DNA from: Thermoanaerobaculia bacterium
Lineage (GTDB): Bacteria > Acidobacteriota > Thermoanaerobaculia > Multivoradales > JAGPDF01
Assembly (NCBI GenBank): GCA_018057705.1
Contig: JAGPDF010000015.1
Coordinates: 5,248-62,074 of the forward strand
Direction: 5' to 3'
Length of the DNA: 56,827 bases
Part shown: positions 3,758 through 38,577 of the stretch, one piece after another
How the letters are laid out: each line of letters begins with the position of its first letter
Position numbering within the stretch: the stretch's first letter is position 1
Translations under genes and position numbers: made by a program
The notes under the pieces: generated by a model
What the model was told of the DNA's origin: nothing
The model's database searches: none
The model's input: the letters and a program-made list of their open reading frames with translations, nothing else

Positions 3758-5984
3758 ATTGACTGCGCTCGATCCGCCGGCCGACGATCCCTTCGGCCCG
3801 CATGCGGCTTACTCGGCGGGCCCCCGGCTCGACACTGGCGTCGTACCCGATCGGATCGTCGACACCCATTGCTGCTTCTGCGGCCAGCAATGCGGCATCC
3901 GCCTGAAGGTCAAGGACGAGCAGGTCATCGGCTTCGAGCCGCGCTACGACTTCCCGTTCAATCGCGGAATGCTCTGCCCGAAAGGGATCAAGCGCTACCT
4001 GCAGGGCGCCCATCCCGATCGCCTGCTTGCGGCGCACGAGCGCGACGAGAGCTCCCCTGGAGGTTTCCGCCCGATCGCCTACGAACGCGCGATCGAACGG
4101 ACGGCGGGCGAGATCCGGCGGATTCAGGAGAGTTACGGGCGCGATGCCATGGCGGTCCTTTCCGGCGCCTCGCTCACCACCGAGAAGGCCTACCTCGTGG
4201 GCAAGTTCGCCCACATGGCGCTCGGCACCTCGAACATCGACTACAACGGGCGTCTCTGCATGGTGTCGGCGGGCGCCGGGAACTCCAAGGCGTTCGGCGT
4301 CGACCGCGCCGCGAACCCCTGGTCGGACATTCTCGGCGCCGAGCTGATCTGGATCTCGGGAGCGAATGTCGCCGAATGTGCACCGATCACCACGGACTAT
4401 GTCTGGCAGGCGCGCGAGCGCGGCGCGCGAGTCATCGTTGTCGATCCGCGCCTGACGCCGATCGCCCGCACCTGCGATCTTTTCCTGCCCATCAAGCCCG
4501 GGCGCGACGCCGCTCTCTTCAACGGCATCCTGCACCTGATGATCGAGCACGGTTGGGTCGACCGCGATTTCGTCGCCAGCCAGACCGTCGGTTTCGACGA
4601 TCTGGCCCGGACCGTCGCCGAGTGGACACCGGCGCGGACGGCCGCGGTCACCGGCATCACCGAATCGGCGATCCGCCAGGCCGCGGAGTGGTGGGGAACG
4701 GCGCAGAGCAGCTTCCTGATGCATGCGCGCGGCATCGAGCATTCGAGCCACGGCGTGCAGAACGTTCTCGGTGCGATCAACATGGTGCTGGCCTCGGGGC
4801 GGATCGGGCGGGAATTCTGTGGCTACGCCACGATCACCGGCCAGGGCAACGGCCAGGGTGGCCGCGAGCACGGGCAGAAGTGCGATCAGCTCCCAGGGGG
4901 CCGCAAGCTCGCCGACCCGGAGGCGCGCGACTACATCGCCGGCGTCTGGGGGATGCCGGTCGAAGAGATGCCGCAGCCCGGCGTCGACGCCTACGAAATT
5001 TTCCGCCGGATCGAGCGCGGCGAGATCAAAGGCCTCCTCTCGCTCTGCTTCAATCCGGTGGTGTCGCTCCCGGACAGCGACTACGTCCGCAGGATGTTGG
5101 CGAAGCTCGACTTCTACGTGGCGATCGAATTCTTCCTGAGCGAGAGTGCTCGCCACGCCGACATCGTCCTGCCCGGGTCGCTGCAGGAGGAGGACGAGGG
5201 CACGGTGACGACCGCCGAGGGGCGGGTGATCAAGATCAACAAGGCGATCGCCTGCCCGGGCGAGGCGCGCGAAGACTGGCGAATCATCCAGGATCTGGCG
5301 CGCGCCATCGGTCGTGAGCGCGGTTTCACGTTCGCCGGGCCGCGCGCCATGTTCGAGGAGCTCCGGGTCGCGTCGAAGGGCGGCATCGCCGACTATTCCG
5401 GGATCACCTGGGAGAAAATCGAGCGCCAACAAGGCGTGTTCTGGCCTTGCCCGAGCGAGAATCACGCCGGCACGCCGCGCCTCTTCGAGCCGGGCTCGTG
5501 GAACGTCGTCGCGCAAGGCAAGGGCCCGTTCTATTTCCCCGACGGCAAAGCCCGTTTCAACACCGCGACCTATTCGCCCCCGACGGAAGATATCGACGAC
5601 GAGTTCCCGATCATTCTCACCAGCGGCCGCCTCGTCAGCCAGTTCCTGTCGGGCACCCAGACGCGCAGGATCGGTCCGTTGCTCGACATGGATCCCGAGC
5701 CGTTCATCGAGCTCCATCCGCGCCTCGCCGAGAAGCTCTCGATCGGCGACGGGATGTGGGCGACGGCCGAGACGCGGCGCGGCCGCCTGACGCTCAAGGC
5801 ACGAGTGGTCGCGACCATCCGGCCCGACACCATCTTCGTCCCCTATCATTGGCCCGGCAAGCGCAGCGTCAACCGCCTCACGATCTCCGCCCAGGATCCG
5901 ATCTCGAAGATTCCCGAGTTCAAGGCCTGCGCGGCGCGTCTCCGTGCAGCGACGGCCGAAGAAGTGCGCGAGGCCCGCGCTTGA
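3750..5984 (+). CDS. molybdopterin (bis-MGD) oxidoreductase, nitrate reductase/formate dehydrogenase-like
   Basis: Catalytic subunit of 744 aa. The N-terminus has a 4Fe-4S site ([15 protein letters not shown], then [10 protein letters not shown]) as in NasA/NarB/FdhF enzymes. The stretch [12 protein letters not shown] carries the cysteine expected to ligate molybdenum and matches the RLCM context of cytoplasmic and periplasmic nitrate reductases. The C-terminal molydop-binding domain follows ([17 protein letters not shown]). There is no Tat signal, so it should be cytoplasmic. Start ATG 3750 overlaps the end of the cytochrome gene and gives the usual family length; the longer open frame upstream is not needed. 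Substrate (nitrate, formate or another) cannot be decided from sequence alone; RLCM and the HC-x2-C-x3-C spacing lean towards the assimilatory-nitrate-reductase branch. Confidence 0.88.
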
Positions 5985-6024
5985 GCCTCGCGGGCACCCT
6001 TCCCGTCCGCGGAGCTTCCCGCTG

Positions 6025-6669
6025 ATGCCGGTACCCGCGCAGTACAACTTCTACATCGACCCGGCCCGCTGCATCGGCTGCAACGCCTGCGTCCAGGCCT
6101 GCTCGGAGTGCGATACGCACAAGGGGCAGTCGATGATCCAGCTCGACTTCATCGACCGCTCGCTCTCGCCGCAGACGGTGCCGGTGATTTGCATGCACTG
6201 CGACCAGCCGACCTGCGCCGAAGTCTGCCCGGCCGACGCCATCAAACGCACCGAGGACGGGGTCGTGCAGACGGCTCGCAAGGCGCGGTGCATTGCGTGC
6301 AACAACTGCGTGCTCGCCTGCCCGTTCGGCGTGCCGAAGATGCACGACGAGGCCAACCTGATGATGAAGTGCGACATGTGTTACGACCGGACTTCGCAGG
6401 GCTTGAAGCCGATGTGCGCCTCGGTCTGCCCGAGCCAGGCGCTGTTCTTCGGCACCCGCGAGGAGTTCGAACGCCTGCGCCCCAACTCTCAGCCGGTCGA
6501 CACATTTCGCTTCGGCGCCCAGCAGGTCACGACCAAGGTGAAGATGGTCGTGCCGAAGTCCTTCGCCGGGAACCTGCTGCAGATCACGGCACCTCTCGAG
6601 CGCGGCGCTCCGAGCGCCGCGCCGGTCGATCCCTTGCTCGCGAACTACTTCGAGGAGACTTCGCTTTGA
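6025..6669 (+). CDS. 4Fe-4S dicluster electron-transfer subunit (DmsB/NrfC-like)
   Basis: A 214-aa ferredoxin-like subunit with four cysteine groups, enough for four 4Fe-4S clusters: [38 protein letters not shown], and MKCDMC with CASVCP. This is the standard beta-subunit layout of DMSO-reductase-family enzymes; it relays electrons between the Mo subunit and the membrane or Rieske partners. Start ATG 6025 lies 40 nt after the previous stop. Its stop codon overlaps the TTG start of the Rieske gene. Confidence 0.9.
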
Positions 6670-7211
6670 GCCGTCGTGACCCGGACGAGCTCACGATTGC
6701 GCCGGACGGCCGGCCGATGGAGGAGCAGCCGAAGTGGCGCCGGGACTTTCCCGTCGATGTTCCCCAGGATCAGTACGTCGCGCGGCGCGAGTTCACCAAG
6801 TTCCTCGCTCTCACCAGCTTCGCCTTCGTCGCCGGTCAGGCCTGGATTCTCGCCAAGAGCTATCTCGGCAAGCGGGTCGGCCCGCGCGAGCTCGCCGTTG
6901 CCCGTCTCTCGGAGTTGCCAGTTGGCGCGACCCTGGAGTTCGACTTTCCGGGCCCGGGCGAGCCGAAGCTCCTGGTCCGCTTGAGCGAGCGCGAGCTCGT
7001 GGCGTTCGACCAACGCTGCACCCATCTCTCCTGTCCGGTCATCCCGCAAGTGGAGCAGGGTCGCTTCCACTGCCCCTGCCACTCCGGCAACTTCGACCTC
7101 GTCACCGGCCGGCCGATCTCCGGCCCGCCGCGCCGGCCGCTGCCCAAAGTGGAGCTCGAAATCCGCGGCGATCAGGTCTTCGCCGTCGGTATCACGGAGC
7201 GCACAGCGTGA
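6666..7211 (+). CDS. Rieske 2Fe-2S protein with Tat-like signal anchor
   Basis: A 181-aa protein whose C-terminal half carries both Rieske ligand boxes, CTHLSC and CPCHSGNFD, which bind a 2Fe-2S cluster through two Cys and two His. The N-terminal part has [18 protein letters not shown], a twin-arginine-type signal that may stay as a membrane anchor. This would place the cluster outside the membrane while the Mo subunit appears cytoplasmic. Start TTG 6666 is chosen because it overlaps the preceding TGA by 4 nt (TTGA); ATG 6717 is the alternative and keeps the whole signal. A Rieske subunit beside a ferredoxin-type subunit and a NarI-like cytochrome is an uncommon mix. Confidence 0.88.
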
Positions 7212-7435
7212 ACGGCCGGCGACGATTTACGCGGGCCGAGAAAGTCCCGATCCTCTCGGGCATCGTCGCGATCGTGGTGCTGATCGTCGTGCTGCAGCTC
7301 TGGCTCCTTACCGCGACGATGAACGCGTATCTCGGCGGAGATCGTGGCGCTGCACTTCCCGCCGCCGTGGCCAGCTCGGTCTGTTTCGTGCTCATCCTCG
7401 GCCTGCTGCGCTACGTCTACCGGCTCGATCGCTGA
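7208..7435 (+). CDS. small two-helix membrane protein of the molybdoenzyme operon
   Basis: Seventy-five residues starting at GTG 7208, which overlaps the Rieske stop (GTGA). Two hydrophobic stretches, VPILSGIVAIVVLIVVLQL and AVASSVCFVLILGLL, suggest two transmembrane helices joined by a short loop. It has no cofactor motifs. Position and translational coupling suggest an accessory or assembly subunit of the complex; no function is recognised. Confidence 0.7.
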   Translation: MNGRRRFTRAEKVPILSGIVAIVVLIVVLQLWLLTATMNAYLGGDRGAALPAAVASSVCFVLILGLLRYVYRLDR

Positions 7436-7454
7436 TCGGCGAAGCGGCGAACGA

Positions 7455-8546
7455 ATGACCGGGGCTGGAGTCGAGACGCTGCGCGGTCGGTTCAGCCAGG
7501 TGATCGCGACGCTCTTTCCGGGTTACTTCGCCCTGGTGATGGCGACGGGCATCGTCTCGATCGCCAGTCAGCTCCTCGGCTTTCCGGTACCGGCGCGGCT
7601 GCTCCTGGCGGCGAATCTCGTCTTCTACGCGATCCTTCTCGCACTGACTTGCGTGCGGGCCGTCCGCTTTCCCCGGCGCCTGCTCGCTGATCTCGCCGAT
7701 CACTCTCGGGGCCCGGGATATTTCACCCTGGTGGCGGCGACGAACGTTCTCGGCAGCCAGTGTCTGCGTGTCGCCGGCTGGCGAGGCGCCGCAGAGGTGT
7801 GCTTCGCCGCCGGGCTTGGCCTGTGGGTGCTAGTGATGTACTCCTTCTTCCTCGCCGTCGTCGTGCGCGAAAACAAGCCGACGCTGGGTCAGGGAATCAA
7901 CGGCGCCTGGTTGCTGGCGACGGTGTCGACGCAGTCGGTCGCGGTCCTCGGGGCGAGCCTGGTGGATCCGTTCGGCTGGTCCGCGCCGATCGTGCTCTTC
8001 GGCGCCCTGGTTCTGTTTCTGATCGGTTGCATGCTCTACCTGTCGATCATTACCCTCATCTTCTATCGCTTCACTTTTCTCGAGCTCGAGACCGCGACCC
8101 TCACCCCGCCCTATTGGATCAGCATGGGAGCGGTGGCGATCACCGCGCTCGCCGGCGCCACCTTGCTGCTCGCCGCCGATCGCTCTCCGCTGCTCTCCGA
8201 GCTTGCGCCGTTCCTGCGCGGCTTCACGCTCTTCTTCTGGGCGGCGGGCAGCTGGTGGATCCCGCTGCTGTTGCTGCTCGGCGCCTGGCGCCACCTCTGG
8301 CGCCGGCACGCGCTCACCTATGACCCGCAGTATTGGGCGATGGTCTTCCCACTCGGGATGTACGCCGCCGCCACCTGGCAGCTCGCCGCCGCGCTTCCCA
8401 TGCCACCGCTCGCCGCGCTGGCTCGCGCCACGCTGCCGGTCGCGTTGTTCGCCTGGGCCGCCACCGCACTGGGCATGGTCCACTCCTGGTGGCGGTGGAG
8501 CCGCGAGTACCGAAGCGGGCGGCCACAGGGAAACGAGGCGGCTTGA
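7455..8546 (+). CDS. TDT-family (TehA/SLAC1-like) transporter
   Basis: A 363-aa protein with about ten hydrophobic helices. The N-terminal FPGYFALVMATGIVSIA resembles the first helix of tellurite-resistance/dicarboxylate transporters (TDT) and SLAC1-type anion channels. It follows the small membrane protein by 19 nt and is probably in the same operon, so a role in moving an anion connected with the molybdoenzyme (substrate or product) is plausible but unproven. Start ATG 7455 is preceded by a modest GAAGCGGCGAACG. It converges with the FAD oxidoreductase gene 19 bp downstream. Confidence 0.75.
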   Translation: MTGAGVETLRGRFSQVIATLFPGYFALVMATGIVSIASQLLGFPVPARLLLAANLVFYAILLALTCVRAVRFPRRLLADLADHSRGPGYFTLVAATNVLGSQCLRVAGWRGAAEVCFAAGLGLWVLVMYSFFLAVVVRENKPTLGQGINGAWLLATVSTQSVAVLGASLVDPFGWSAPIVLFGALVLFLIGCMLYLSIITLIFYRFTFLELETATLTPPYWISMGAVAITALAGATLLLAADRSPLLSELAPFLRGFTLFFWAAGSWWIPLLLLLGAWRHLWRRHALTYDPQYWAMVFPLGMYAAATWQLAAALPMPPLAALARATLPVALFAWAATALGMVHSWWRWSREYRSGRPQGNEAA

Positions 8547-8565
8547 TTCTGTTTGACCCTCCCCA

Positions 8566-9747
8566 TCAGGCCGGCAGCCTGCCAACCAGCTCTCTAGAAC
8601 CGAGCGGCCCGGGCTCGGCGATTAGTGAGCGAGCGGCGTCGACCTGGTCCCAGGTGTTCCACAGCAGGATCCCGCGCACCCTGCGCTCGCGCAAGTAGTA
8701 GACCACTCCCTTGCGAAAGGGCTCGCGCCAGTCCGCTACCATCTCCCCGCGGGGGTCCATCTGCCCGACAGCTTCGTAGCCGAGCTCGAACAGGTCCGAG
8801 TAGAAGAACGGCAGGTGCGAGTAGGACGCGGGATCGCCCGCCATGGCGCGGCCCGCCGCGTGGCCCATGGTGACCGCATTGTCCTCGTGCTCGACGCGCA
8901 TGCGGCCGAGCGACGGCGCGTCGAAGCGAGCGACGTCGCCGGCGGCGAAGACGTCGGGATGAGAGGTTCGCAGGCCCGCGTCCACGATGATTCCGTCATC
9001 GACTTCGAGGCCGGACTGCGTGGCCAGATCCGTGTTGGGCACGATGCCGATGCCGGCCACGACCGCGTCCACGGTGACCTTGCGCCCACTCTTGGTCTCG
9101 AGCACCTGTTGCGAGCCGCTCCGGCTCAGGCCGGTCACCCTCTCGCCCCGCAGGGCTTCTACGCCGTGTTCCGCGTAGTAGCCGACCAGGAACCGAGCCA
9201 GGTCGGCAGGGAAAAGCCGCGCACCGATCCCGTCTTCAGGGAAGAGCAGCGTCACTTTGCTCCCTTGCATGGCGAGGGCGGCTGCGACCTCGGAGCCGAT
9301 GAAGCCGCCGCCGATCACCGCGAAGCTCTTACCCTGCTCGGCCATGGCGTGAAGGCGGCGGAAGTCGGCGAGAGTGCGGAAGTAGATCGTCTCCTCGCCG
9401 CCGAACGGCAGGTGTCGTGGCGTGCCGCCGGTCGCGATGAGGAGCTTCTCGAAGGTGTACTCCGCGCCGTCATTGTCGGTCACCTTCTTGCCGTGCAAGT
9501 CGAGAGCCGTTGCACGCCGGCCGAGGAGGAGGTCCACTCCATGCTCGGCGGTGTTCCTCCACACGCTCTCCAGCGGATCCCCCTTCCAGAGCCCCTTGGA
9601 GAGCGGTGGCCGGGCGTACGGCGGGTCGGTCTCTTCGCCGATGAGCCCGATGGGGCGGACGGCGTCGAGCTCGCGAATGCCGCGCACCGCGGCATCCGCC
9701 GCCATGCCGCCGCCGAGGATGAGGTACGGATAGTGTGCCATCTTCAT
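8566..9747 (-). CDS. FAD-dependent pyridine nucleotide-disulfide oxidoreductase (ferredoxin reductase/AIF type)
   Basis: A 393-aa flavoprotein. YLILGGGMAADAAVRGIRE is the FAD Rossmann motif, AVIGGGFIGSEVAAALAMQG the NAD(P) motif, and VFAAGDVARF the second FAD contact. The final 90 residues look like a reductase C-terminal domain. It lacks the redox CxxxxC of glutathione-reductase-type enzymes, so ferredoxin or rubredoxin reductase-like activity is more likely. The start overlaps the stop of the AhpD-like gene by 4 nt (ATGA), so the two are co-translated. Confidence 0.85.
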   Translation of the reverse strand: MKMAHYPYLILGGGMAADAAVRGIRELDAVRPIGLIGEETDPPYARPPLSKGLWKGDPLESVWRNTAEHGVDLLLGRRATALDLHGKKVTDNDGAEYTFEKLLIATGGTPRHLPFGGEETIYFRTLADFRRLHAMAEQGKSFAVIGGGFIGSEVAAALAMQGSKVTLLFPEDGIGARLFPADLARFLVGYYAEHGVEALRGERVTGLSRSGSQQVLETKSGRKVTVDAVVAGIGIVPNTDLATQSGLEVDDGIIVDAGLRTSHPDVFAAGDVARFDAPSLGRMRVEHEDNAVTMGHAAGRAMAGDPASYSHLPFFYSDLFELGYEAVGQMDPRGEMVADWREPFRKGVVYYLRERRVRGILLWNTWDQVDAARSLIAEPGPLGSRELVGRLPA

Positions 9748-10160
9748 GCTCCTTTCATCGCCTGCCGCTTACCGGCTCCGGGCGACTGCTCGCCTGACGT
9801 CGTCGTCTGTTCCTCTTTCGTTTCGCGGGAGTGCGCCAGGCTGTCCAGAGCGAGGGCGGAATGCGCGTAGGCGGCTCCGGCACGCATCTCCGCAGCCACC
9901 CAGATCGCCTCCATGATCTCCTCGGGTGCGGCGCCGTGACGTTCGGCAGCACGGGTATGGGCGCGAATGCAGTACGGGCACTGCGTAACGTGCGCGACAG
10001 CGACCGCGATCAGCTGCTTCGCTTTCACCGGCAGCGCCCCGTCTGCGAAAACGCTCTGGCTGAAGGCCCGGAAGGTATCGGCAGGCCCGGGGGCCAGTCG
10101 GCGGCGTTTCTCGGCGAGGTCGAGGGTCGAGCGAGGGTACATCTCGTGGGGTTCCGGCAT
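9744..10160 (-). CDS. carboxymuconolactone decarboxylase / AhpD-like protein
   Basis: A 138-aa protein with the signature TQCPYCIRAHTRAAERHGA: a CxxC pair and downstream His as in AhpD-type alkylhydroperoxidases. These proteins pass reducing equivalents to peroxides or act as decarboxylases. Pairing with a flavin reductase in the same operon fits a peroxide or redox-defence role, which is inference. The tail after about residue 110 is low in structure (ETKEEQTTTSGEQ). Upstream is the divergent regulatory region shared with the PAS-LuxR gene. Confidence 0.85.
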   Translation of the reverse strand: MPEPHEMYPRSTLDLAEKRRRLAPGPADTFRAFSQSVFADGALPVKAKQLIAVAVAHVTQCPYCIRAHTRAAERHGAAPEEIMEAIWVAAEMRAGAAYAHSALALDSLAHSRETKEEQTTTSGEQSPGAGKRQAMKGA

Positions 10161-10245
10161 GGGCTGCTCCCTTCAGGATCCTCCCGTCACCGCGGCGTTT
10201 GACGCGGCCGCGGCACGACTGCATGATGGGAGACGGCGGAATCCA

Positions 10246-10267
10246 CCGCAATGGTCGGTTCGTACCG
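10246..10267 (-). promoter_or_regulatory. conserved 22-bp motif, copy A (candidate operator)
   Basis: Read on the minus strand: CGGTACGAAC, 3 nt, CCATTGCGG. The same motif occurs at 12237-12258 with 19 of 22 positions identical. It sits in the divergent region between the AhpD-like gene and the PAS-LuxR gene. Overlapping it is a second dyad, GTACCG-TGC-CGGTAC at 10262-10276. Binding protein unknown; the adjacent LuxR-type regulator is the first candidate. Confidence 0.5.
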
Positions 10268-10350
10268 TGCCGGTACCCAATTGGCTCATGCGTGCCTGTT
10301 GGGGCGGCCTCCGGGAGGACGCCACGCCTGTTCCGCGCAGAGGAGCGACA

Positions 10351-11013
10351 ATGCTGGAAGCGGAGATATTCACCTTGCTCGAGCAGACGGCCGATGCCGC
10401 GTATTCGGTCACCGAGGAGGGCGAAATCTGCTCCTGGAACAACGCCGCCGAAGAGCTCTTTGGCTATCCCGCCGGGGAGGTTCTGGGCCGCAACATCCAC
10501 GAGGTGCTCGAGGCTCGCGACGCCCTGGGCACCCAAGTGCTCGCGGGCGACGGTGAGGCTGCGGTCCGCCGATGGAACCGGACGTCCCCGGGGATCCCCA
10601 ACTTCGATCTCGAGGTCCGCACGCGGTCCGACCGGCGGATCTGGGTGAACGTCTCGACGATCGTGCTCGACCCTCCGCGCTCGGGGCGCCGCCTCTTCCT
10701 GCGGCTGGCACGTGATATCTCCCAGCGCCGTCGCGACGCGGAGCTCCTTCAGCGGGTGCTGGGAGCCGCCCGCCAGCTCGTGGCGGTCGCCGGCGACTCG
10801 TCCAGCCATGCGCAGATCGAGCCGCTCTCCGACCAGGAGATTCGGATCCTGAAGCTGTTCGCCGAGGGCCGCGACTCCACCGGCATCGCCCGCATGCTGA
10901 AGATTTCCGCGCATACGCTGCGCAACCACCTCCACCACATCAACCGCAAGCTCCGCACCCATAGCCGCCTCGAGGCGGTAACCCACGCGCAGCGGCGCGG
11001 GCTGATCGACTAG
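10351..11013 (+). CDS. PAS-domain LuxR-type transcriptional regulator
   Basis: A 220-aa single-component regulator. Residues about 5-125 are a PAS domain (AAYSVTEEGEICSWNNAAEE, GYPAGEVLGRN) and residues about 155-220 a LuxR/GerE helix-turn-helix (LSDQEIRILKLFAEGRDSTG, then HTLRNHLHHINRKL). It has no receiver domain, so the PAS domain probably senses the signal itself. Start ATG 10351 follows AGAGGAGCGACA. It is divergent from the AhpD/FAD pair and lies next to copy A of the shared 22-bp motif; the second copy lies in front of the DUF488-transaldolase operon, so this protein may control both. Confidence 0.88.
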   Translation: MLEAEIFTLLEQTADAAYSVTEEGEICSWNNAAEELFGYPAGEVLGRNIHEVLEARDALGTQVLAGDGEAAVRRWNRTSPGIPNFDLEVRTRSDRRIWVNVSTIVLDPPRSGRRLFLRLARDISQRRRDAELLQRVLGAARQLVAVAGDSSSHAQIEPLSDQEIRILKLFAEGRDSTGIARMLKISAHTLRNHLHHINRKLRTHSRLEAVTHAQRRGLID

Positions 11014-11031
11014 CTGCGGCGCCGGCCCAGC

Positions 11032-12039
11032 TCACAGCTGCACCGCGCTCGCCACGCTCGGTTGCCCGGGCGGCGCATCGATAAGAACTCCGTCAAGTAT
11101 CGGAGAGGCCTCGCGGGTCGGGAGGGCGGGTTTCTTGCCGAGCCTCCTGAGGCTCTCCGCTACGCGCTCCGGGCGGCCCCAGTCACTCCACTCGATGTTG
11201 GCGAGTGACAGGACCAGGGCAGCTTCTGGACAGCGCTGCACTAGATCCCGCGAGAAGTCGGCATGCGGCATCCGGTGATAGGCCCGGCTGATGGCGCGAT
11301 CGATCTCTGCCTTGGAGGGCTCTCCGAGCGAAGCGCCGAGCTCGCGGCAGAGAGCATAGAGCGGAAGCATCATTTCGGGCAGGAGTTGCTGGCCCAGCCG
11401 CCACAGAGTGTCGACGCGGGCGGCAAAGATCATGGTGTTCCACAGCCCCCCGCGGGCGAGGAACCGCTCGGCTCGCTCGCGGTCAGGCTTCTCCTCGAAA
11501 CCAGCCACCGGCCGAAGTGGGAGCGAGTGCTGCTGAGTGGCGGGCAGGATCCAGCCGAAGTCGGTCTCGGGCCAGAGCGGCCTGGCGCCCAGCATTACCA
11601 ATCTCCCTGGCTGCTCGGCCGCTTCGCGGCATGCGGCTTCGGCCAGGGCGATGAAGTCCGCCTTGGGATGGATGAAGTGATCCGACGGCATGACGACGAC
11701 CGTCGCCGAGGGGTCGCGGGCAGCGACGAGCGCGGTTGGCAGGAAGATGCCCGGCGCCGTACCGCGATCGGCTGGCTGTTCGATGACCGCCCCTGGCGCT
11801 GGCTCCTCGATGCCGTCGAGGAATTGGAGATGCCCTCGGCCCACGATGGTGGTCACTTGGTCCGGCGGAGCCATGGCCCGCGCGCGGTCCCACGTATGGC
11901 CGAGCATGGAACGGCGGCCGGAGAACGCGCAGTACTGCTTCGGGCGTTCCTCACCCAGCCAGCTGCGGATGAAAGACTGCATTCGCCGCCCTTCGCCGCC
12001 CGCGAGCACGATCGGCCAGACGCTGGAACTGCTTCTCAT
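11032..12039 (-). CDS. mannose-1-phosphate guanylyltransferase-like nucleotidyltransferase
   Basis: A 335-aa nucleotidyltransferase. WPIVLAGGEGRRM is the GTP/Mg-binding loop, ERPKQYCAF carries the conserved lysine context of GDP-mannose pyrophosphorylases, and VVVMPSDHFI and GFEEKP are further family motifs. The expected reaction is mannose-1-phosphate + GTP to GDP-mannose, used for polysaccharide or lipid-linked sugars. It lacks the C-terminal isomerase domain of bifunctional ManC. Start ATG 12039 was chosen over the longer frame because AGGAGACCAGG lies just upstream on the minus strand. It converges with the PAS-LuxR gene (18-bp gap) and may share the regulatory region at 12237. Confidence 0.82.
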   Translation of the reverse strand: MRSSSSVWPIVLAGGEGRRMQSFIRSWLGEERPKQYCAFSGRRSMLGHTWDRARAMAPPDQVTTIVGRGHLQFLDGIEEPAPGAVIEQPADRGTAPGIFLPTALVAARDPSATVVVMPSDHFIHPKADFIALAEAACREAAEQPGRLVMLGARPLWPETDFGWILPATQQHSLPLRPVAGFEEKPDRERAERFLARGGLWNTMIFAARVDTLWRLGQQLLPEMMLPLYALCRELGASLGEPSKAEIDRAISRAYHRMPHADFSRDLVQRCPEAALVLSLANIEWSDWGRPERVAESLRRLGKKPALPTREASPILDGVLIDAPPGQPSVASAVQL

Positions 12040-12236
12040 CCTGGTCTCCTTATTCGGGCCGCCGTCGACCGCTTGGGCCCGAATCGATCCTGGTCGGACT
12101 TTGCCCCTGTGGCAATGATCTGTTTGTCCCGAGAACAAGGACGGGCGTCATGCGCGACGCACTTCGGACAATCGCGCCGGCGCACGAAGCCGGCGCTGGC
12201 GATGGGCGTGCTGCGAGTGACCGTTGGCTCCTCACA

Positions 12237-12267
12237 CGGTACGAACGAGCCATTGCGGTTCGTGCCG
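12237..12267 (+). promoter_or_regulatory. conserved motif copy B within a 31-bp inverted repeat
   Basis: CGGTACGAAC, 3 nt, CCATTGCGG at 12237-12258 repeats the element at 10246-10267. Here it is extended: CGGTACGAAC at 12237-12246 and GTTCGTGCCG at 12258-12267 form an inverted repeat (9 of 10) around an 11-bp spacer. It lies in the 323-bp gene-free stretch between the guanylyltransferase gene (leftward) and the small exported protein (rightward), where it could act on both. I see no other gene in that stretch. Confidence 0.5.
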
Positions 12268-12363
12268 AGCGCGCTCAACATGCTCTCGGAGCGCGAGCAG
12301 AGAGTGTGGCCAAGCTGCTCGTTCCGTCTTACAGGCCAGCGACTCAGTCGCAAGGAGCACCTC

Positions 12364-12690
12364 ATGAAATCGCCCACGGTTGCAGTCGTTCTCGCGATCA
12401 TTCTCGCCTTCGCAGTGGTGGGAGTGTGCGCCTTCGCAACAGCCGACACGCGGGTCGCGCCGAAGAGCGCCGTCGTTGCCGCTGGCTTCGCGGCGATTCT
12501 CGGCCTGAGGTCTTCGGTCGGCGACACCGTCGAGGGGAGGGTCGCGGTCACCCATCGTCGCGCGAAACGGGGAGCACCTCCGGCGCCGGCGGACCTGCAG
12601 CGCTATCGAAGCGTCTTGGCGATCCAGGTCTCCGTCGACGATCTCCTGGACCGGAGCAGGCGAGCCATGCAGGAAAGGACGTATCTGTGA
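12364..12690 (+). CDS. small exported or membrane-anchored protein of unknown function
   Basis: A 108-aa protein with an N-terminal hydrophobic segment (VAVVLAIILAFAVVGVCAFA) that looks like a signal peptide or anchor. A short Ala-rich region and a basic C-terminal half follow (HRRAKRGAPP, DLLDRSRRAMQ). ATG 12364 follows AAGGAGCACCTC. The stop overlaps the GTG start of DUF488 (GTGA). I do not recognise a family. Confidence 0.6.
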   Translation: MKSPTVAVVLAIILAFAVVGVCAFATADTRVAPKSAVVAAGFAAILGLRSSVGDTVEGRVAVTHRRAKRGAPPAPADLQRYRSVLAIQVSVDDLLDRSRRAMQERTYL

Positions 12691-13091
12691 TCGCGCTGAA
12701 GCGCGCCTACGAACCGGTCACGCGCGACGATGGAGTCCGCTTCCTGGTCGAACGTCTGTGGCCCCGCGGCGTCACGAAGGAGAAGCTGAGGGTGGGTGCT
12801 TGGCTGAAGGAAGTCGCACCTACGACGGAGCTCCGGAAGTGGTTCAGCCATGATCCGGACAAGTGGTCCCGATTCCGCGCCCGCTACTTTCGCGAGCTCG
12901 ACGCAGCGCCCGAGGCGTGGCGGCCACTTCTCTCCGCGGCAAGGCGCGGGACGGTGACTCTGGTCTACAGCTCTCATGACGAGCGACACAACAACGCCGT
13001 GGCGCTGAGGGACTACCTCGAGAACCGCCACGGTTCGTCGGCGAAGACGCCGCCCATGGCCACAGCTCGTACGCGGCGGATCCCGGAATGA
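12687..13091 (+). CDS. DUF488 family protein (YeaO-like)
   Basis: A 134-aa protein with the DUF488 signatures RFLVERLWPRGVTKEKL, ELRKWFSHDPDKW and LVYSSHDERHNNAVAL. The family is widespread and biochemically undefined, though often found near stress or DNA-repair genes, as here. The GTG start at 12687 overlaps the previous stop by 4 nt. The last 20 residues are basic and poorly conserved in appearance. Confidence 0.85.
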   Translation: MIALKRAYEPVTRDDGVRFLVERLWPRGVTKEKLRVGAWLKEVAPTTELRKWFSHDPDKWSRFRARYFRELDAAPEAWRPLLSAARRGTVTLVYSSHDERHNNAVALRDYLENRHGSSAKTPPMATARTRRIPE

Positions 13092-13170
13092 CGATGCCGT
13101 CCGGTGCGCGGGAGGGGCTGATCCCTTTCCTGAATGAAAGCAAAGCTGGCGTGCGCGACCGGAGCGATGC

Positions 13171-14277
13171 GTGAAGCCGACCCAACGACTGCAAGAGGTC
13201 GGGCAAAGCCTGTGGCTCGACAACATCGCTCGCGGGCTGCTGACAGATGGCACCTTGCGGCGGTACATTGCCGAGCTGTCGGTGACCGGCCTCACGTCGA
13301 ACCCCACGATTTTCGATCATGCCATCAGAGATGGCGGCGCCTACGACAGCGGCATCCGCCGGAAAGCAGCTGAAGGCACGACGGGCCAGGGTTTGTTCTT
13401 CGATCTCGCCCTCGAGGACTTGACCCAGGCCGCCGAGCTCTTCCGCCCCGCTTACGACCGCACCGGGGGCGTCGATGGGTGGGTGTCGTTGGAGGTGTCG
13501 CCGCTGCTGGCCAACGATACGGCGGGGACGATCGCGGCGGCAGCGCAGCTTCACACGCGAGCCAATTGCTCCAACCTCTTCATCAAGATCCCGGGCACGC
13601 CGGAGGGTATTCCCGCGATCGAGGCGTCGATCCTCGCCGGAGTGCCGATCAATGTGACGCTCTTGTTTTCCACCGACCAGTACCTCGCGGCGGCCGAGGC
13701 CTACGTGCGAGGGCTCGAGCGGAGGCTTGCGGCCGGCCTGAATCCGCGGGTCGATTCCGTCGCGTCACTGTTCGTCAGCCGCTGGGATGTGGCGGTCAAG
13801 GACCTGGCACCCCGGGAGCTGCGCAATCGTCTGGGTATCGCCGTGGCTCGGCGCACGTACAAGGCCTACCGCGATCTTCTGGCGTCGGCCCGGTGGCGGC
13901 GATTGGCGGCCGCGGGCGCCCGAACGCAACGCCTGCTTTGGGCCAGCACGGGAACCAAGGATCCTGGTGCGCCGGATACGATGTACATTGAGGCGCTGGC
14001 CGCGCCGGAGACCATCAACACGATCCCGGACAGGACGTTGCTCGCCTTTGCCGACCACGGGCATCTGAGTGGGGAGATGCCGGCCGATGGTGGCGATGCC
14101 GAAGAGACACTCGCCTCCTTCCGGCGGATCGGGGTGGACGATACGGCCCTCGCGACCCGGCTCCAGCGCGAAGGCATTGTGTCCTTCGACCGATCGTGGC
14201 AGGAGTTGCTGGCCCGCATTGAGTCGAAAATCGCCGCGATCGAGCAGGTCGATCACTCCAGTCCGGGGCGACCATGA
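13171..14277 (+). CDS. tal: transaldolase
   Basis: A 368-aa class I transaldolase, which exchanges dihydroxyacetone units between sugar phosphates in the non-oxidative pentose phosphate pathway. TGLTSNPTIFDHAI is the N-terminal Tal signature, and FIKIPGTPEGIPAIEA contains the Schiff-base lysine. The later NVTLLFSTDQY and LWASTGTKDP fit the long actinobacterial/cyanobacterial-type Tal. Start GTG 13171 follows GGAGCGATGC. Its end overlaps the DUF2090 gene by 4 nt (ATGA). It lies 79 nt after DUF488, probably in one operon with it. Confidence 0.93.
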   Translation: MKPTQRLQEVGQSLWLDNIARGLLTDGTLRRYIAELSVTGLTSNPTIFDHAIRDGGAYDSGIRRKAAEGTTGQGLFFDLALEDLTQAAELFRPAYDRTGGVDGWVSLEVSPLLANDTAGTIAAAAQLHTRANCSNLFIKIPGTPEGIPAIEASILAGVPINVTLLFSTDQYLAAAEAYVRGLERRLAAGLNPRVDSVASLFVSRWDVAVKDLAPRELRNRLGIAVARRTYKAYRDLLASARWRRLAAAGARTQRLLWASTGTKDPGAPDTMYIEALAAPETINTIPDRTLLAFADHGHLSGEMPADGGDAEETLASFRRIGVDDTALATRLQREGIVSFDRSWQELLARIESKIAAIEQVDHSSPGRP

Positions 14278-15227
14278 ACGGTGGTGGAAAAAGGGCGAGG
14301 ATCTCCTCGTCGCAGCGTGAGCCGGGCCTTCGCGGCTACGACCGACCGCTCTACCTGCTGCCGTTCGACCACCGGCATTCCTACTTGACCGGGATGTTCA
14401 ACGCCACGCCTCCGCTGACAGCGGACGAATGTGCTGCGGTCATCGACAGCAAGCGGGTGATCTACGACGGGTTCCAGCAGGCGCTCGGCCGTGAGCTGCC
14501 GCTTGCTTCCGCCGGCATCCTGGCCGACGAGGAATTCGGCGCCGGCATCCTGCGCGACGCGGCCAGGAACGGATACGTGACTGCGTTGGCTATCGAGAAG
14601 AGCGGCTCGGACGAGTTCGAGTTCGAGTACGGCACAGAGTTCGCCGAGCACATCGAGGCGTTCGAGCCTACCTTCGCGAAGGTGCTGGTGCGCTACAACC
14701 CGGAAGGCGACGAGGCGCTCAATCAGCGGCAAACTGCCCGGCTGAGACAGATTTCCGACTACTGTCGGAGGTCGAGCCAGCTCTTCATGTTCGAGCTCCT
14801 GGTGCCAGCGACGGAGGCGCAAGACGTCGCGACCTACGATCTGCGGACGCGGCCGGGATTGATGCTTCAGGCCATCCGCAGGTTGCAGGATGCGGGTGTC
14901 GAGCCGGATGTCTGGAAGATCGAAGGGCTCGACCGCCGCGAGGACTGCGAGCGCGTCGTCGCCACCGTGCGGCGCGACGGTCGGCGCGGAGTGGGCTGCA
15001 TCGTATTGGGACGCAGTGCCGATGAGAAGAAGGTAGCGGTCTGGCTCGAGACCGCCGGGTCCGTTCCGGGGTACATCGGTTTCGCGGTCGGACGGACTAC
15101 CTTCTGGGAACCGGTGGCAGACTACCTGGCGCACGACACGACGCGGCCGGAGGCGGTCTTCCGCATCGCGCAACGCTACCGCGCTTGGGCGGCGATCTTC
15201 GAGCGGGCGCGGTCGGTGGCCGACTGA
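14274..15227 (+). CDS. DUF2090 (IolC C-terminal-like) aldolase-fold protein
   Basis: A 317-aa protein resembling the stand-alone C-terminal domain of IolC-type proteins (DUF2090), which in inositol catabolism is linked to 2-deoxy-5-keto-gluconate phosphate aldolase activity. Visible motifs are LYLLPFDHRHSYLTGMF at the N-terminus, KVLVRYNPEGD, FELLVPATEAQ, WKIEGLDRREDCERVV and GFAVGRTTFWEPV. The TIM-barrel character and overlap with transaldolase suggest a carbon-carbon lyase acting on a sugar phosphate. The substrate here is unknown; no other inositol genes are present. Confidence 0.8.
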   Translation: MNGGGKRARISSSQREPGLRGYDRPLYLLPFDHRHSYLTGMFNATPPLTADECAAVIDSKRVIYDGFQQALGRELPLASAGILADEEFGAGILRDAARNGYVTALAIEKSGSDEFEFEYGTEFAEHIEAFEPTFAKVLVRYNPEGDEALNQRQTARLRQISDYCRRSSQLFMFELLVPATEAQDVATYDLRTRPGLMLQAIRRLQDAGVEPDVWKIEGLDRREDCERVVATVRRDGRRGVGCIVLGRSADEKKVAVWLETAGSVPGYIGFAVGRTTFWEPVADYLAHDTTRPEAVFRIAQRYRAWAAIFERARSVAD

Positions 15228-15231
15228 ATCT

Positions 15232-15846
15232 ATGCCGCGAGAAACTGCAGCAGCCTCCGCCTATCCCACTCTCGAAGGATTGCTGACTGCCGTGCGGAGC
15301 TGTCGGGCGTGCGAAGTGGATCTTCCGCTGGGCCCGCGCCCGGTGCTGAGCGCCAGCGCAACCGCACGCATCCTCGTCGTGGGCCAAGCCCCCGGTGTGC
15401 GGGTGCACTTGACGGGCATTCCGTGGGACGACGCGAGCGGGGCGCGGTTACGCGGGTGGATGGGTGTGGACGAGGACGCCTTTCATGACGAATCGAGAAT
15501 CGCGATCATTCCCATCGGCTTTTGCTATCCCGGGCGCGGGAGAGGTGGTGATTTACCACCGCGCCGTGAATGCGCCGCGCTCTGGCTCGACCAGCTGCTC
15601 GCCCGCCTGCCCCGGATCGAGCTGACTCTGCTCGTCGGGCAGCATGCTCAACGCCGCTTCCTCGGTCCCCGCCGCAAACCGTCGTTGGCCGAGACGGTCA
15701 AGGCCTGGCGGGAGTACGCGCCGCAATATCTGCCGCTGCCCCACCCCTCGCCGCGCAATCAACCGTGGTTCCGGCAGCACCCCTGGTTCGAGCGGCAGCT
15801 CGTCCCGGTGTTACGCGCGCAGATCAACGCATTTTCTGCTCGCTGA
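15232..15846 (+). CDS. uracil-DNA glycosylase family protein
   Basis: A 204-aa protein with the fold markers of the UDG superfamily: ILVVGQAPGVRVHLTGIPW for the uracil-binding motif A and LPLPHPSPRNQPWF for the HPSPRN motif B. Cysteines CRAC at about residues 24-27 recall the Fe-S family-4 enzymes, but the second pair is not obvious, so cluster binding is doubtful. It follows DUF2090 by 4 nt and is the last gene of the stress cluster before the accessory island. Its role is probably base-excision repair or a related nucleotide-binding function. Confidence 0.85.
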   Translation: MPRETAAASAYPTLEGLLTAVRSCRACEVDLPLGPRPVLSASATARILVVGQAPGVRVHLTGIPWDDASGARLRGWMGVDEDAFHDESRIAIIPIGFCYPGRGRGGDLPPRRECAALWLDQLLARLPRIELTLLVGQHAQRRFLGPRRKPSLAETVKAWREYAPQYLPLPHPSPRNQPWFRQHPWFERQLVPVLRAQINAFSAR

Positions 15847-15964
15847 CGTCCGGACCGGCGAGGCATGGCAGTTGGAACCGGCAGTTCACTTCGCCGGGTC
15901 CAGGGCTCGAAGTGTAAATCTCCGCAGCAGAGTGAGAAAAGAAATGGTGGACCAAATCACTCTG

Positions 15965-15995
15965 AGTTCGAACACCCCAGGAAGTTCGAACACCC
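15965..15995 (+). repeat. two iteron-like repeats, copy 1
   Basis: AGTTCGAACACCC occurs at 15965-15977 and again at 15983-15995, an 18-bp period, typical of Rep-binding iterons. The core GTTCGAAC is palindromic. Placed about 180-210 bp upstream of a RepA-type gene. Only two units are visible. Confidence 0.6.
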
Positions 15996-16140
15996 TGATT
16001 TTCTGGCTCCGGGAAGTCGCGGCATTGAGGCAGGCGGCGTGAGTTCGATGCCGTTGAAGGGCCTGTCTCCGGGTTCCGTACGCCGTCTCCGGAGGAGCCC
16101 GGCAGGGCGCCTCGCCGGGACCGGCGTCCCTCTCTGGTCT

Positions 16141-16171: not shown

Positions 16172-17140
16172 ATGCCTGGAAAGACCGCTTGGAAGTCCGC
16201 GACCCCGCAGCTCTCGTTGGTCCTCCCTGGCGCCCCGGCGTCACAGTTTCATTCTCCAGATGTTGAGACCAGGCCCCGCAAATCCAGGCGCGCCGGCAGC
16301 CTGATCCGGCAGTCGCTCTACCTCGACCAGGAGGATGCCTACGCCGCCGGCGAAGTCGGTTTCCTGGCCCGGGCCCTGGTGCAGGCGACCCTTCCGCACA
16401 GCGACCCGAAGGCCAACGAGTTCGTCCGGCGGAACGGACACTTCACCCTGTCCATCCTTGCCCCGAAGGACGTCGGGCTGCCGTACGGCCGCTATCCGCG
16501 CCTGGTCCTCGCCTACCTCACGACCGAGGCGGTGCGCCGCAAGAGCCCCGACGTCGAGCTCGGCGGCCACTTCTCGCGCTTCTGCGCTGCCCTCGGGATC
16601 CCGCCGACCACGGGACCGCGTGGGTCGTTGCCGCAGCTCCGCGACCAGCTCCAGCGTCTCTTCGCCTCGACCTTCCAGTGCATCTTCCACGACGAGAGCC
16701 AGGGGAGACACGCTGGCGATGGCTTCCTGATCGCCGAGAAGCGGGAACTCTGGTGGGACCCGCGGCTGAGGAAGGGCGAGGCTGCGTGGGGGTCCCACGT
16801 CGTTCTCTCGGACCGGTTCTATCGGGAGGCGACTGAAGCGCCGGTCCCGCTCGACTTGCGGGTCCTTCGCGCCCTCCGGTCGCCGTTCGAGATCGACATC
16901 TACGTCTGGTTGACCTGGCGCTTCTTTCGTCTGCGGAAGCCGGTCACCATCCCGTGGGCCTCTCTGGCGCTCCAGTTCGGCTGCGGCTACGCCAATCCCC
17001 GGCACTTCAAGAAGCGGTTCCTCGGCTACCTTCGGAGCGTCATCGACTACTACCCCGGCGTCAGGCTCGAGAGCTTGGCCACCGGCTTGCTGCTCAAGCC
17101 CTCGCCGACGCACATCGGGCAGCGGCCTGCAAAGGGCTGA
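16172..17140 (+). CDS. plasmid-type RepA replication initiator homologue, copy 1
   Basis: A 322-aa protein resembling the plasmid-encoded RepA family (IncW/pSa-type, Pfam RPA): RLVLAYLTTEAVRRKSPDVE, SLPQLRDQLQRLFAST, DLRVLRALRSPFEIDIYVWL, RKPVTIPWASLALQFG, FKKRFLGYLRSV and a GLLLKPSPTH-like end. Such proteins bind iterons and open the plasmid origin. ATG 16172 follows GGAGGGGCAG. About 29 of 322 residues differ from copy 2, and both reading frames are intact. No partition, mobilisation or transposase genes accompany it, so it may be an orphan from an integrated plasmid or a distinct element. Confidence 0.8.
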   Translation: MPGKTAWKSATPQLSLVLPGAPASQFHSPDVETRPRKSRRAGSLIRQSLYLDQEDAYAAGEVGFLARALVQATLPHSDPKANEFVRRNGHFTLSILAPKDVGLPYGRYPRLVLAYLTTEAVRRKSPDVELGGHFSRFCAALGIPPTTGPRGSLPQLRDQLQRLFASTFQCIFHDESQGRHAGDGFLIAEKRELWWDPRLRKGEAAWGSHVVLSDRFYREATEAPVPLDLRVLRALRSPFEIDIYVWLTWRFFRLRKPVTIPWASLALQFGCGYANPRHFKKRFLGYLRSVIDYYPGVRLESLATGLLLKPSPTHIGQRPAKG

Positions 17141-21265: not shown

Positions 21266-22234
21266 ATGTCTTGGAAGACCGCTTGGAAGTCCGCGACCCC
21301 GCATCTCTCGTTGGTCCTCCCTGGCGCCCCGGCGTCACAGTTTCATTCTCCAGATGTTGAGATCGGGTCCCGCAAGTCCAGGCGCTCGGGCAGCCTGATC
21401 CGGCAGGCGCTCTACCTCGACCAGGAGGACGCCTACGCTGCCGGTGAGGTCGGTTTCCTGGCCCGGGCCCTGGTGCAGGCGACCCTTCCGCACAGCGACC
21501 CGAAGGCCAACGAGTTCGTCCGGCGGAACGGACACTTCACCCTGTCCATCCTCGCGCCCAAGGAAGTCGGACTGCCGTACGGCCGGTATCCGCGCCTGGT
21601 CCTCGCCTACCTCACGACCGAGGCGGTGCGCCGCAAGAGTCCGGACATCGAGCTCGGTAGCCACTTCTCGCACTTCTGTGCCTCCCTCGGGATCCCGCCG
21701 ACCACGGGACCGCGGGGGTCCTTGCCGCAGCTCCGCGACCAACTCCAGCGTCTCTTCGCCTCGACCTTTCAGTGCATCTTCGACGACGAGAGCCAGGGGA
21801 GACACGCTGGCGACGGCTTCTTGATCGCCGAGAAGCGAGAGCTCTGGTGGGACCCGCGGCCGAGGAAGGCCGCCGCGGCCTGGGGGTCTCACGTTGTTCT
21901 GTCGGATCGGTTCTTCCGGGAGGCGACCGAAGCGCCGGTCCCGCTTGACTTGCGGGTCCTGCGCGCTCTGCGGTCGCCGTTCGAGATCGACATCTATGTC
22001 TGGCTGACCTGGCGCTTCTTCCGCCTGAGGAAGCCGGTCACCATCCCTTGGGCCTCGCTGGCGCTCCAGTTCGGCTGCGGCTACGCCAACCTCCGGCACT
22101 TCAAGAAGCGGTTCCTCGGGTACCTACAGAGCGTCATCGACTACTACCCGGAGGTGAGGCTGGAGAGTATGGCGACAGGGCTCGTGCTGAAACCTTCGCC
22201 GAGTCACGTCGACAGCCGGCCGGCGCGGCGCTGA
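21266..22234 (+). CDS. plasmid-type RepA replication initiator homologue, copy 2
   Basis: A 322-aa paralogue of the protein at 16172-17140, same length, about 91% identical, with all family motifs retained (RLVLAYLTTEAVRRKSPDIE, SLPQLRDQLQRLFAST, RKPVTIPWASLALQFG). Most changes are conservative and cluster in the first 50 and last 45 residues, suggesting selection on the core rather than decay. ATG 21266 follows GGAGGGGCCCT. It ends 45 bp before the converging sigma-54 activator gene. Confidence 0.8.
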   Translation: MSWKTAWKSATPHLSLVLPGAPASQFHSPDVEIGSRKSRRSGSLIRQALYLDQEDAYAAGEVGFLARALVQATLPHSDPKANEFVRRNGHFTLSILAPKEVGLPYGRYPRLVLAYLTTEAVRRKSPDIELGSHFSHFCASLGIPPTTGPRGSLPQLRDQLQRLFASTFQCIFDDESQGRHAGDGFLIAEKRELWWDPRPRKAAAAWGSHVVLSDRFFREATEAPVPLDLRVLRALRSPFEIDIYVWLTWRFFRLRKPVTIPWASLALQFGCGYANLRHFKKRFLGYLQSVIDYYPEVRLESMATGLVLKPSPSHVDSRPARR

Positions 22235-36425: not shown

Positions 36426-36919
36426 TCGAAGATCTCCCTGAGCGGCACCTCGTAGCGCGCCTTGAAGCGGGCGACGAAGGCCCCCACCTCGTCGACGTCC
36501 CACACGTGCAGCATGAGCGCGCTGCGATCGAGTGCAATCTCGGACCAAACCGTGCCCGGCACCACCGTCGTCACCATGGCCAGGGCAGCGAGGCCGAGCG
36601 GATCGCGCAGCTCGAGCGGAATGACGACGAAGCGTGGGGCCGGCCGGCGCCATCGCCGGAAGAGGACGCCCCACGCCACTTGAAAGCTCGACGCCACCAC
36701 ATCGCGAGCGACCGTCAGGATGAAGCGCGCGACGACCAACGGTCGGTGGACGCGCACCGCCATCAGGTGCAGGTTTGCGGTCAGCAGCGGCACCACAAGG
36801 GCGAGCGCGATGCCAATCAGGATGTGACCGGCGCTCATTGAGCGTGCAAGCGCCAGCCACAGGGCCAGCAGCGCCGCCGACAACCACGGCGCGGGCACCA
36901 TTCTCGCGAGAAGGGTCAC
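36422..36919 (-). CDS. mrpE: Mrp antiporter subunit E
   Basis: A 165-aa subunit with hydrophobic helices at the N-terminus (LSAALLALWLALARSMS; HILIGIALALVVPLL), then PRFVVIPLELRDPLGLAALA and MVTTVVPGTVWSEI, the MnhE signature. GTG 36919 overlaps the mrpD stop (GTGA). The cytoplasmic tail has LMLHVWDVDEVGAFVARFKA. Confidence 0.92.
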   Translation of the reverse strand: MTLLARMVPAPWLSAALLALWLALARSMSAGHILIGIALALVVPLLTANLHLMAVRVHRPLVVARFILTVARDVVASSFQVAWGVLFRRWRRPAPRFVVIPLELRDPLGLAALAMVTTVVPGTVWSEIALDRSALMLHVWDVDEVGAFVARFKARYEVPLREIFE

Positions 36920-38577
36920 GGGGCTTTCTCCCCGTCGACGCTCGACCGCCCCAGTCCCGGTACGGGCGCTGTCGACATGACCGCATGGATGTAGGCCTTC
37001 GGTGAATGGAGAGACTCGGCGGCGGCGCGCGTGTAGCGCAGGACCCGCTCGGCATTCACCGTGAGCCAGGCGCAAACGAGTATGAGCGCAAGGACGGGCG
37101 CACCTTCAGCGACCCTCAGGCGGGTCGGGAGACTGCTGGGCGTCGACCAGAAGCGTCGAATGCCTGCCCTCGACAGGGAGATTGTCGCGAACAGGCCCGA
37201 GAGGAGCAGCAATCCGAAGAGCCACCAGGCGAGTGGCGTCGCTGCCGAGTCGTGCGCAGCAGCGAGCCCATTGGGTCTCAAGAGCGCCGCCATCAGCGCC
37301 CATTTCGCGACGAAACCCGACAGCGGCGGCAGCCCCGCGACGAGCAAGACGCAGGCGATGAAGGCCAGTCCGAGCAGCGCCAGGGACGCCGGTATCGCTC
37401 GGCCGACGAGTGGCGTCTCATCGTCGTCGAGGTTCGTGTCCTCACCAGGCTCCAGGCCCACCTCGACCAGTGGCAGGCGTTCGCCGGTGCCCGTGCGCTC
37501 GAGGAGATCGACGAGGAGAAACAGCGCCGCCACGGCGAGCGTGGAGCTCAATAGATAGAAGAGCGCGGCTGACGTCACGCCAGCACCCCCCACTCCGATT
37601 GCCGCAAGGAGCGTCCCCGACGACACGATGATCGAGAAGCCCGCGATCCGCGCCAGTCGCAGCGAGGCCATGAGGCCGAGGACGCCGAAGACGACGGTCG
37701 CGAGCCCGCCGTAGAGAAAGACGCTTGCCCCGAAGTGCGCCGATGGGCCTGCGTCCGCCGAAAAGAGCAGCGTCCATAAGCGCAGCAGAGTGTAGATGCC
37801 GACCTTGGTCATCAACGTAAAGACCGCCGCGACCGGTGCGCTCGCCGCCGCGTAGGCCGGCACCAGCCACGAGTTGAGCGGCCAGATGGCCGCCTTGGTG
37901 AGGAACGCCACGGCGAGGATTCCCGCGCCCGCGTGCAGCAGCCCGCGATCGACCTCCGCGACGAGCGGCAGCTTGGCGGCGATGTCCGCCATCGAGAGCG
38001 TGCCCATGACGCCGTACAGCATGGCGAGGCCGACCAGGAAGAGCGACGATGCCAGCAGGTTGACCGCGATGTAGTGCAGCCCGGAGCGCACCCGCGGCCA
38101 GCCCGACCCGTGCAGTTGCAGACCGTAGGAGGCGGCGAGAGCCACCTCGAAGAAAACGAAGAGGTTGAACAGGTCGCCGGTGAGAAATGCCCCGTTCAGG
38201 CCCATGAGCTGAATCTGGAAGAGCGGATGAAAGTAGACGCCTGCCCGGCTCCATGCGGCCGTCGAATAGACGGCCGCGCCGAGGCTCACCACGGAGGCGA
38301 GAACCAGCATGAGCGCCGACAGCCGATCAGCCACCAGCACGATGCCGAACGGTGCCTCCCAGTTCGCAGTCAGGTAGACGCCTATCGCTCCAGGTACGCC
38401 GTCGGCGTCGACCTGTCTGAGGATTGCAAGTGAGACGAGAAGGCTCGCGAGCGTCGTGCCGACGTTGACGATCGACTTGAACCGCGGCCGCCGATCACCG
38501 AGAAGCAGCAGAATCGCGGCTGCCAGCAGAGGCAGCACGATGGGAACCACGAGGAGGTGCGGCAGAGCCGAGCTCAT
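36916..38577 (-). CDS. mrpD: Mrp antiporter subunit D
   Basis: A 553-aa multi-helix subunit homologous to NuoM/NuoN of complex I. LNGAFLTGDLFNLFVFFEVA holds a key glutamate; VAFLTKAAIWPLNSWLVPAY and the lysine-containing LMTKVGIYTLLR helix fit the proton-channel pattern. A polar loop GLEPGEDTNLDDDETPLVGR separates late helices, longer than usual. Start ATG 38577 overlaps mrpC by 4 nt. Confidence 0.94.
   Translation of the reverse strand: MSSALPHLLVVPIVLPLLAAAILLLLGDRRPRFKSIVNVGTTLASLLVSLAILRQVDADGVPGAIGVYLTANWEAPFGIVLVADRLSALMLVLASVVSLGAAVYSTAAWSRAGVYFHPLFQIQLMGLNGAFLTGDLFNLFVFFEVALAASYGLQLHGSGWPRVRSGLHYIAVNLLASSLFLVGLAMLYGVMGTLSMADIAAKLPLVAEVDRGLLHAGAGILAVAFLTKAAIWPLNSWLVPAYAAASAPVAAVFTLMTKVGIYTLLRLWTLLFSADAGPSAHFGASVFLYGGLATVVFGVLGLMASLRLARIAGFSIIVSSGTLLAAIGVGGAGVTSAALFYLLSSTLAVAALFLLVDLLERTGTGERLPLVEVGLEPGEDTNLDDDETPLVGRAIPASLALLGLAFIACVLLVAGLPPLSGFVAKWALMAALLRPNGLAAAHDSAATPLAWWLFGLLLLSGLFATISLSRAGIRRFWSTPSSLPTRLRVAEGAPVLALILVCAWLTVNAERVLRYTRAAAESLHSPKAYIHAVMSTAPVPGLGRSSVDGEKAP

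Follow-up and report, generated by a model that had tools for sequence, protein, structure and literature searches.

The window, the whole 56,827-nucleotide stretch of the Thermoanaerobaculia contig analysed here, carries a gene for a one-component regulator together with genes for an AhpD-family protein, an FAD-dependent oxidoreductase and a guanylyltransferase, and an operon on the plus strand (Table 1). Pfam places a PAS domain at residues 7-124 of the regulator (PF00989/PF13426) and a GerE (LuxR) helix-turn-helix at residues 158-213 (PF00196) with no other domain, and the structure model agrees; the protein belongs to the PAS plus GerE one-component regulators, in which both domains share one chain and there is no receiver domain. 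The sequence CGGTACGAAC-N3-CCATTGCGG matches exactly at copies A and B (boxes A and B), which agree in 19 of 22 bases, the 3 unequal bases being the spacer; shuffled sequences gave a mean of 0.02 and none gave two. Both copies are non-coding, A lying between the AhpD start (10160) and the luxR start (10351) and B between the guanylyltransferase start (12039) and the open reading frame at 12364. Exact matching and gene models thus agree with the two non-coding copies of the first-pass annotation, but the count is three, a weaker copy on the minus strand (box C, GGGACAAACAGATCATTG) having been overlooked.

Table 1. Genes, boxes and predicted promoter elements at the regulator locus (window coordinates)
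Feature	Position	Strand	Evidence and remarks
One-component regulator, N-terminal PAS and C-terminal GerE (LuxR) HTH, 220 aa	10351..11013	+	Pfam, ortholog alignment, model; proposed box binder
Box A	10246..10267, core 10249-10265	-	Exact match, PWM 22.0 bits; ends in predicted -35 of AhpD/FAD promoter
Predicted -10 of promoter A, CATCAT	10223..10228	-	17 bp after TTGCGG; conserved spacing
AhpD/CMD-family protein	9744..10160	-	PF02627; first gene under box A
FAD-dependent pyridine nucleotide-disulphide oxidoreductase	8566..9747	-	PF07992, AIF_C; second gene under box A
Box C	12113..12130, core match 12113-12129	-	Pattern with 1 mismatch, PWM 16.7 bits; guanylyltransferase orientation
Predicted -10 of promoter C, CAGGAT	12087..12092	-	17 bp after TTGCCA; conserved spacing
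Nucleotidyl (guanylyl) transferase	11032..12039	-	PF00483, start from gene model; under box C
Box B	12237..12258, core 12239-12255	+	Exact match, PWM 25.2 bits; ends in predicted -35 of operon promoter
Predicted -10 of promoter B, CAACAT	12276..12281	+	17 bp after TTGCGG; conserved spacing
Small protein, no Pfam match	12364..12690	+	First ORF under box B; AAGGAG before ATG; overlaps DUF488 start
DUF488 protein	12687..13091	+	PF22752/PF04343; under box B
Transaldolase family (TAL)	13171..14277	+	PF00923; under box B
DUF2090 protein	14274..15227	+	PF09863; under box B
Uracil-DNA glycosylase superfamily (UDG)	15232..15846	+	PF03167; under box B

The repeat had been drawn as 22 bp and copy B as part of a 31-bp dyad. 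While the repeat is exact over that length, the conserved core is only a 17-mer, with the position weight matrix (PWM) consensus (R)GTACRAAYGNNYYATTG; the flanks carry almost no information and the outer CG...CGG bases of the 22-mer fall outside the core. The dyad likewise exists (12237-12246 with 12258-12267, 9/10 pairs) but is not conserved: at least 7 of 10 pairs occur in 1 of 84 sites, copy B itself, and as a functional element it was rejected and appears incidental. Self-complementarity of the matrix gives no clear peak at any offset, with a weak GAA-N3-TTC core visible in some sites.

The whole 5.08-Mb genome was searched with sequence patterns and a sequence-only covariance model, and the full PWM was applied to the window and to relatives' loci. 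Allowing at most 3 mismatches, the 22-mer has 2 exact matches in the genome, confined to A and B, and 2 with 3 mismatches, while the reversed 22-mer has 0. The core GTACRAAYNNNYYATTG with at most 1 mismatch finds exactly three sites, A, B and C, none of them further than 2 kb from the regulator gene, with 0 matches for the controls; the genome scan proposed in the first-pass annotation thus leads back to this locus. Scored with a PWM built from other loci only, B, A and C stand above the next best site in the window (10.3 bits), a sharpness that is inflated in appearance by the seeding of the matrix with consensus-like sites. In the genome ranking by the covariance model, which describes the box and the -10 and had no window sequence in its training set, B comes first and A second; box C is absent from the genome matches of the model.

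Computation across other genomes establishes the conservation of the boxes, their orientation, their spacing to a -10-like element and their co-occurrence with the regulator. A contig search returned 64 relatives of the regulator, mainly from Gemmatimonadota, at 65-74% identity, and from Acidobacteriota, at about 44-58%. Near-identical boxes adjoin 43 of 56 orthologous PAS-LuxR genes of the two phyla, a box being counted as adjacent when it scored at least 14 bits with the PWM and lay no more than 400 bp before the start codon or about 350 bp past the stop; with the matrix columns reversed, no box appears at the same 56 loci. Several of the 13 orthologs without an adjacent box have one elsewhere in the locus. 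Relative to the regulator, the 33 boxes upstream all occupy the minus strand and the 34 downstream all occupy the plus strand, so that every one of them points away from it. Over all loci 127 of 136 sites are intergenic by the gene calls of a simple in-house caller; of the 9 inside genes, 5 belong to genomes that yielded no close ortholog. The motif is therefore not one that lies mainly inside genes, which had been named as contrary evidence, and the comparison of homologous loci supports the earlier reading that a shared motif marks out a local regulon centred on the PAS-LuxR gene. These same data contradict a repeat duplication, a mobile-element remnant or a chance recurrence with no regulatory role: the copies are near-identical and local and RepA-like genes are close by (16172 and 21266), but the boxes keep the same sequence, position and direction in both phyla, at intergenic sites, which leaves that explanation a negligible probability.

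The box also tracks the regulator from genome to genome. The GTACRAAYGNNYYATTG pattern is present in 33 of 50 ortholog-carrying genomes (control matches 0) versus 6 of 198 others (Fisher p 1.5e-22, indicative only, as relatedness among genomes is uncorrected). The 198 are an even sample of Acidobacteriota only, in which the ortholog search scored the top 15 candidates per genome and could miss an ortholog. Five of the six outside matches lie inside genes, as chance matches would, and the single intergenic one (L188) may mark a genome with a missed ortholog. The orthologs share an almost unchanged recognition helix, TLRNHLHHIN, with a single HLHN variant (L044), whereas PAS-LuxR paralogs in box-less genomes have a different helix (TVNNHVQHIL and similar) and loci without boxes. 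We infer that binding of the box by the regulator is well supported, because the two co-occur and the recognition helix is near-invariant where the paralogs differ.

When the non-redundant sites are aligned on the box, the sole further conserved feature seen is a -10-like nAnnnT, found 17-18 bp after the box-terminal TTGnnn in 58 of 84 sites (flank shuffles: mean 8, maximum 19). Its fixed columns, four bases apart, hold A in 61 and T in 48 of the 84. The -10 hexamers match TATAAT poorly, and in the window the distance from box to start codon is 89, 109 and 74 bp for A, B and C, respectively. In a related locus a DUF488 gene is preceded by a tandem pair of identical boxes 20 bp apart (L074 4571-4608). 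Given that transcription usually begins some 7 nt past the -10, the TTGnnn-to-nAnnnT register would place the end of the box in the -35 and the centre of the box at about -41/-42. Such a layout, in which TTGnnn is the -35, matches a sigma70-type promoter, and with the start site so predicted the box would have the centre near -41.5, the -35 overlap and the fixed orientation of a class II activator site.

Strict direction and spacing to the -10 would also be expected if GTACRAAYGNNYYATTG were the extended -35 of an alternative sigma factor promoter and the PAS-LuxR gene a mere neighbour. We consider this very unlikely, as the genome holds only three copies, each at most 2 kb away from the regulator, the regulator and the box co-occur across phyla, and TTG-17-nAnnnT alone fits sigma70. 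Somewhat less remote, though still improbable, is repression by the regulator: bound to the box, it would cover the -35 and hold the promoters silent until a trigger reaches the PAS domain. The box does overlap the -35, and repression is common among regulators that cover that element; but a repressor does not need a single fixed direction, and a fixed register and orientation of box and promoter, along with weak -10s, are what activator-dependent promoters typically show. Activation is thus suggested by position.

The most probable explanation, which we hold with good confidence, is that the PAS-LuxR regulator binds the boxes as its operator and acts by class II activation of sigma70-type promoters. 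The repeat would be the operator of the regulator encoded beside it, with the GerE helix-turn-helix binding GTACRAAYGNNYYATTG. Box and promoter would be fused, the last TTG of the box serving as the -35 with a weak nAnnnT -10 lying 17-18 bp on, and from its class II position the regulator would most likely recruit sigma70 RNA polymerase. Promoters A, B and C, none more than 2 kb from the regulator, would then make up a small regulon. The PAS domain of the regulator may sense a redox, oxygen or NO-type signal.

Box direction and -10 register assign A to the AhpD/FAD pair, B to the small-ORF-DUF488-TAL-DUF2090-UDG operon and C to the guanylyltransferase. Motifs do precede all three, as had been proposed, but the guanylyltransferase is reached through its own box C and not through copy B. 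A divergent promoter at copy B shared with the guanylyltransferase was rejected, as the orientation rule and box C speak against it, and copy B is predicted to drive the plus-strand operon only. Targets of the window recur under the box in relatives, as box-AhpD-UDG-DUF488 (L177/L040), box-DUF488-AhpD (L146/L074) and box-DUF488 (L069/L151, L071, L077, L063 and others). The relatives' target lists, which take in distant and possibly wrong genes, further include multicopper oxidase/cupredoxin proteins (a cluster of 19 targets), MmgE/PrpD, a NorB-type nitric oxide reductase, hemerythrin, SCO1-like, NuoA-like and universal stress proteins, MetE, dehydrogenase E1, a DeoC/LacD aldolase, a 6-phosphogluconate dehydrogenase-like protein and FAD/NAD reductases. 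The common theme of the targets appears to be redox, NO or energy stress.

Acidobacterial regulators (L042-L079) have a PAS domain with four conserved cysteines, roughly C-x12-C-x3-C-x5-C, possibly a metal or Fe-S site that was lost in Gemmatimonadota and in the window protein. Since the four cysteines are missing from both, sensing has probably diverged. In the regulator tree the window protein falls inside the Gemmatimonadota clade (100/100 support) though the genome is filed as Acidobacteriota, and relatives in the same order are without a close ortholog. Window positions 4351-16066 are 99.93% identical over 11,716 bp to contig JAGOCP010000028.1 of another Thermoanaerobaculia MAG (L030, another species of the genus), reflecting either recent transfer or a shared mis-binned contig; that genome, which is 84% complete, lacks a match to the gene at 36916-38577. 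Two near-identical RepA_C-type plasmid replication proteins are encoded at 16172-17140 and 21266-22234, and the sister genome's contig ends just before the first, which suggests a repeat and a plasmid-derived segment.

Known regulators of similar build differ from this one in operator, sequence or domain order. EL222 (LOV-HTH) likewise joins a sensor PAS/LOV domain to a LuxR-type HTH on one chain and is a weak fold match to the modelled regulator; it senses light via a flavin adduct, and the window regulator presumably has no recognisable LOV signature. VqmA of Vibrio and vibriophage VP882, also a one-component PAS plus LuxR-type HTH activator, gives a weak full-length fold match with the model, and a PDB profile search with the window regulator found no sequence match to it; VqmA senses DPO and its operator is built on GG-N6-CC or GG-N9-CC (PMC8284805). 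PimM, PteF and AmphRIV of Streptomyces share the N-terminal PAS, the C-terminal LuxR HTH and a length of about 200 aa, and PimM-type regulators are activators whose operator, CTVGGGAWWTCCCBAG, sits at the -35 region of target promoters (PMC9774167). That operator is palindromic and the targets are antibiotic clusters, unlike those of the window regulator, which was excluded from the PimM type both by operator (GTACRAAYGNNYYATTG here) and by HTH, the LSRQGVEYHVTxLLRKL signature being replaced in its family by TLRNHLHHINxKLRTHxRLEAV. FG214 of Fimbriimonas, an HTH-PAS heme switch, is also a one-component protein with a LuxR-type HTH and a PAS domain, in reversed order; redox or gas sensing has been proposed for it and its operator is formed from purine-rich GGGGCGGGG half-sites (PMC13060918). 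In the open-access literature we found no description of the operator GTACRAAYGNNYYATTG and no paper on such regulators in Acidobacteria or Gemmatimonadetes; as a literature word GGTACGAAC had no evident connection among the matches listed, which are probably primers.

The regulator is thus of a known kind, the one-component PAS/LOV-LuxR proteins, and what appears to be new is its operator. We lean towards the view that it represents an undescribed module of PAS-LuxR regulator and GTACRAAYGNNYYATTG box common to Acidobacteriota and Gemmatimonadota, moving as a unit and controlling a redox, NO and energy-stress regulon (DUF488, AhpD, UDG and respiratory genes). Within such a module the sensor may have diverged from the four-cysteine PAS of Acidobacteria to the cysteine-less PAS of Gemmatimonadota and the window while the operator stayed unchanged. 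A common control would connect the widespread, uncharacterised DUF488 family with a uracil-DNA glycosylase and AhpD-type redox proteins. With a near-zero background per genome the box is specific enough for targets to be listed in any genome, and a one-component regulator family in two genetically tool-poor phyla now has a proposed operator and promoter architecture, together with a candidate regulon.
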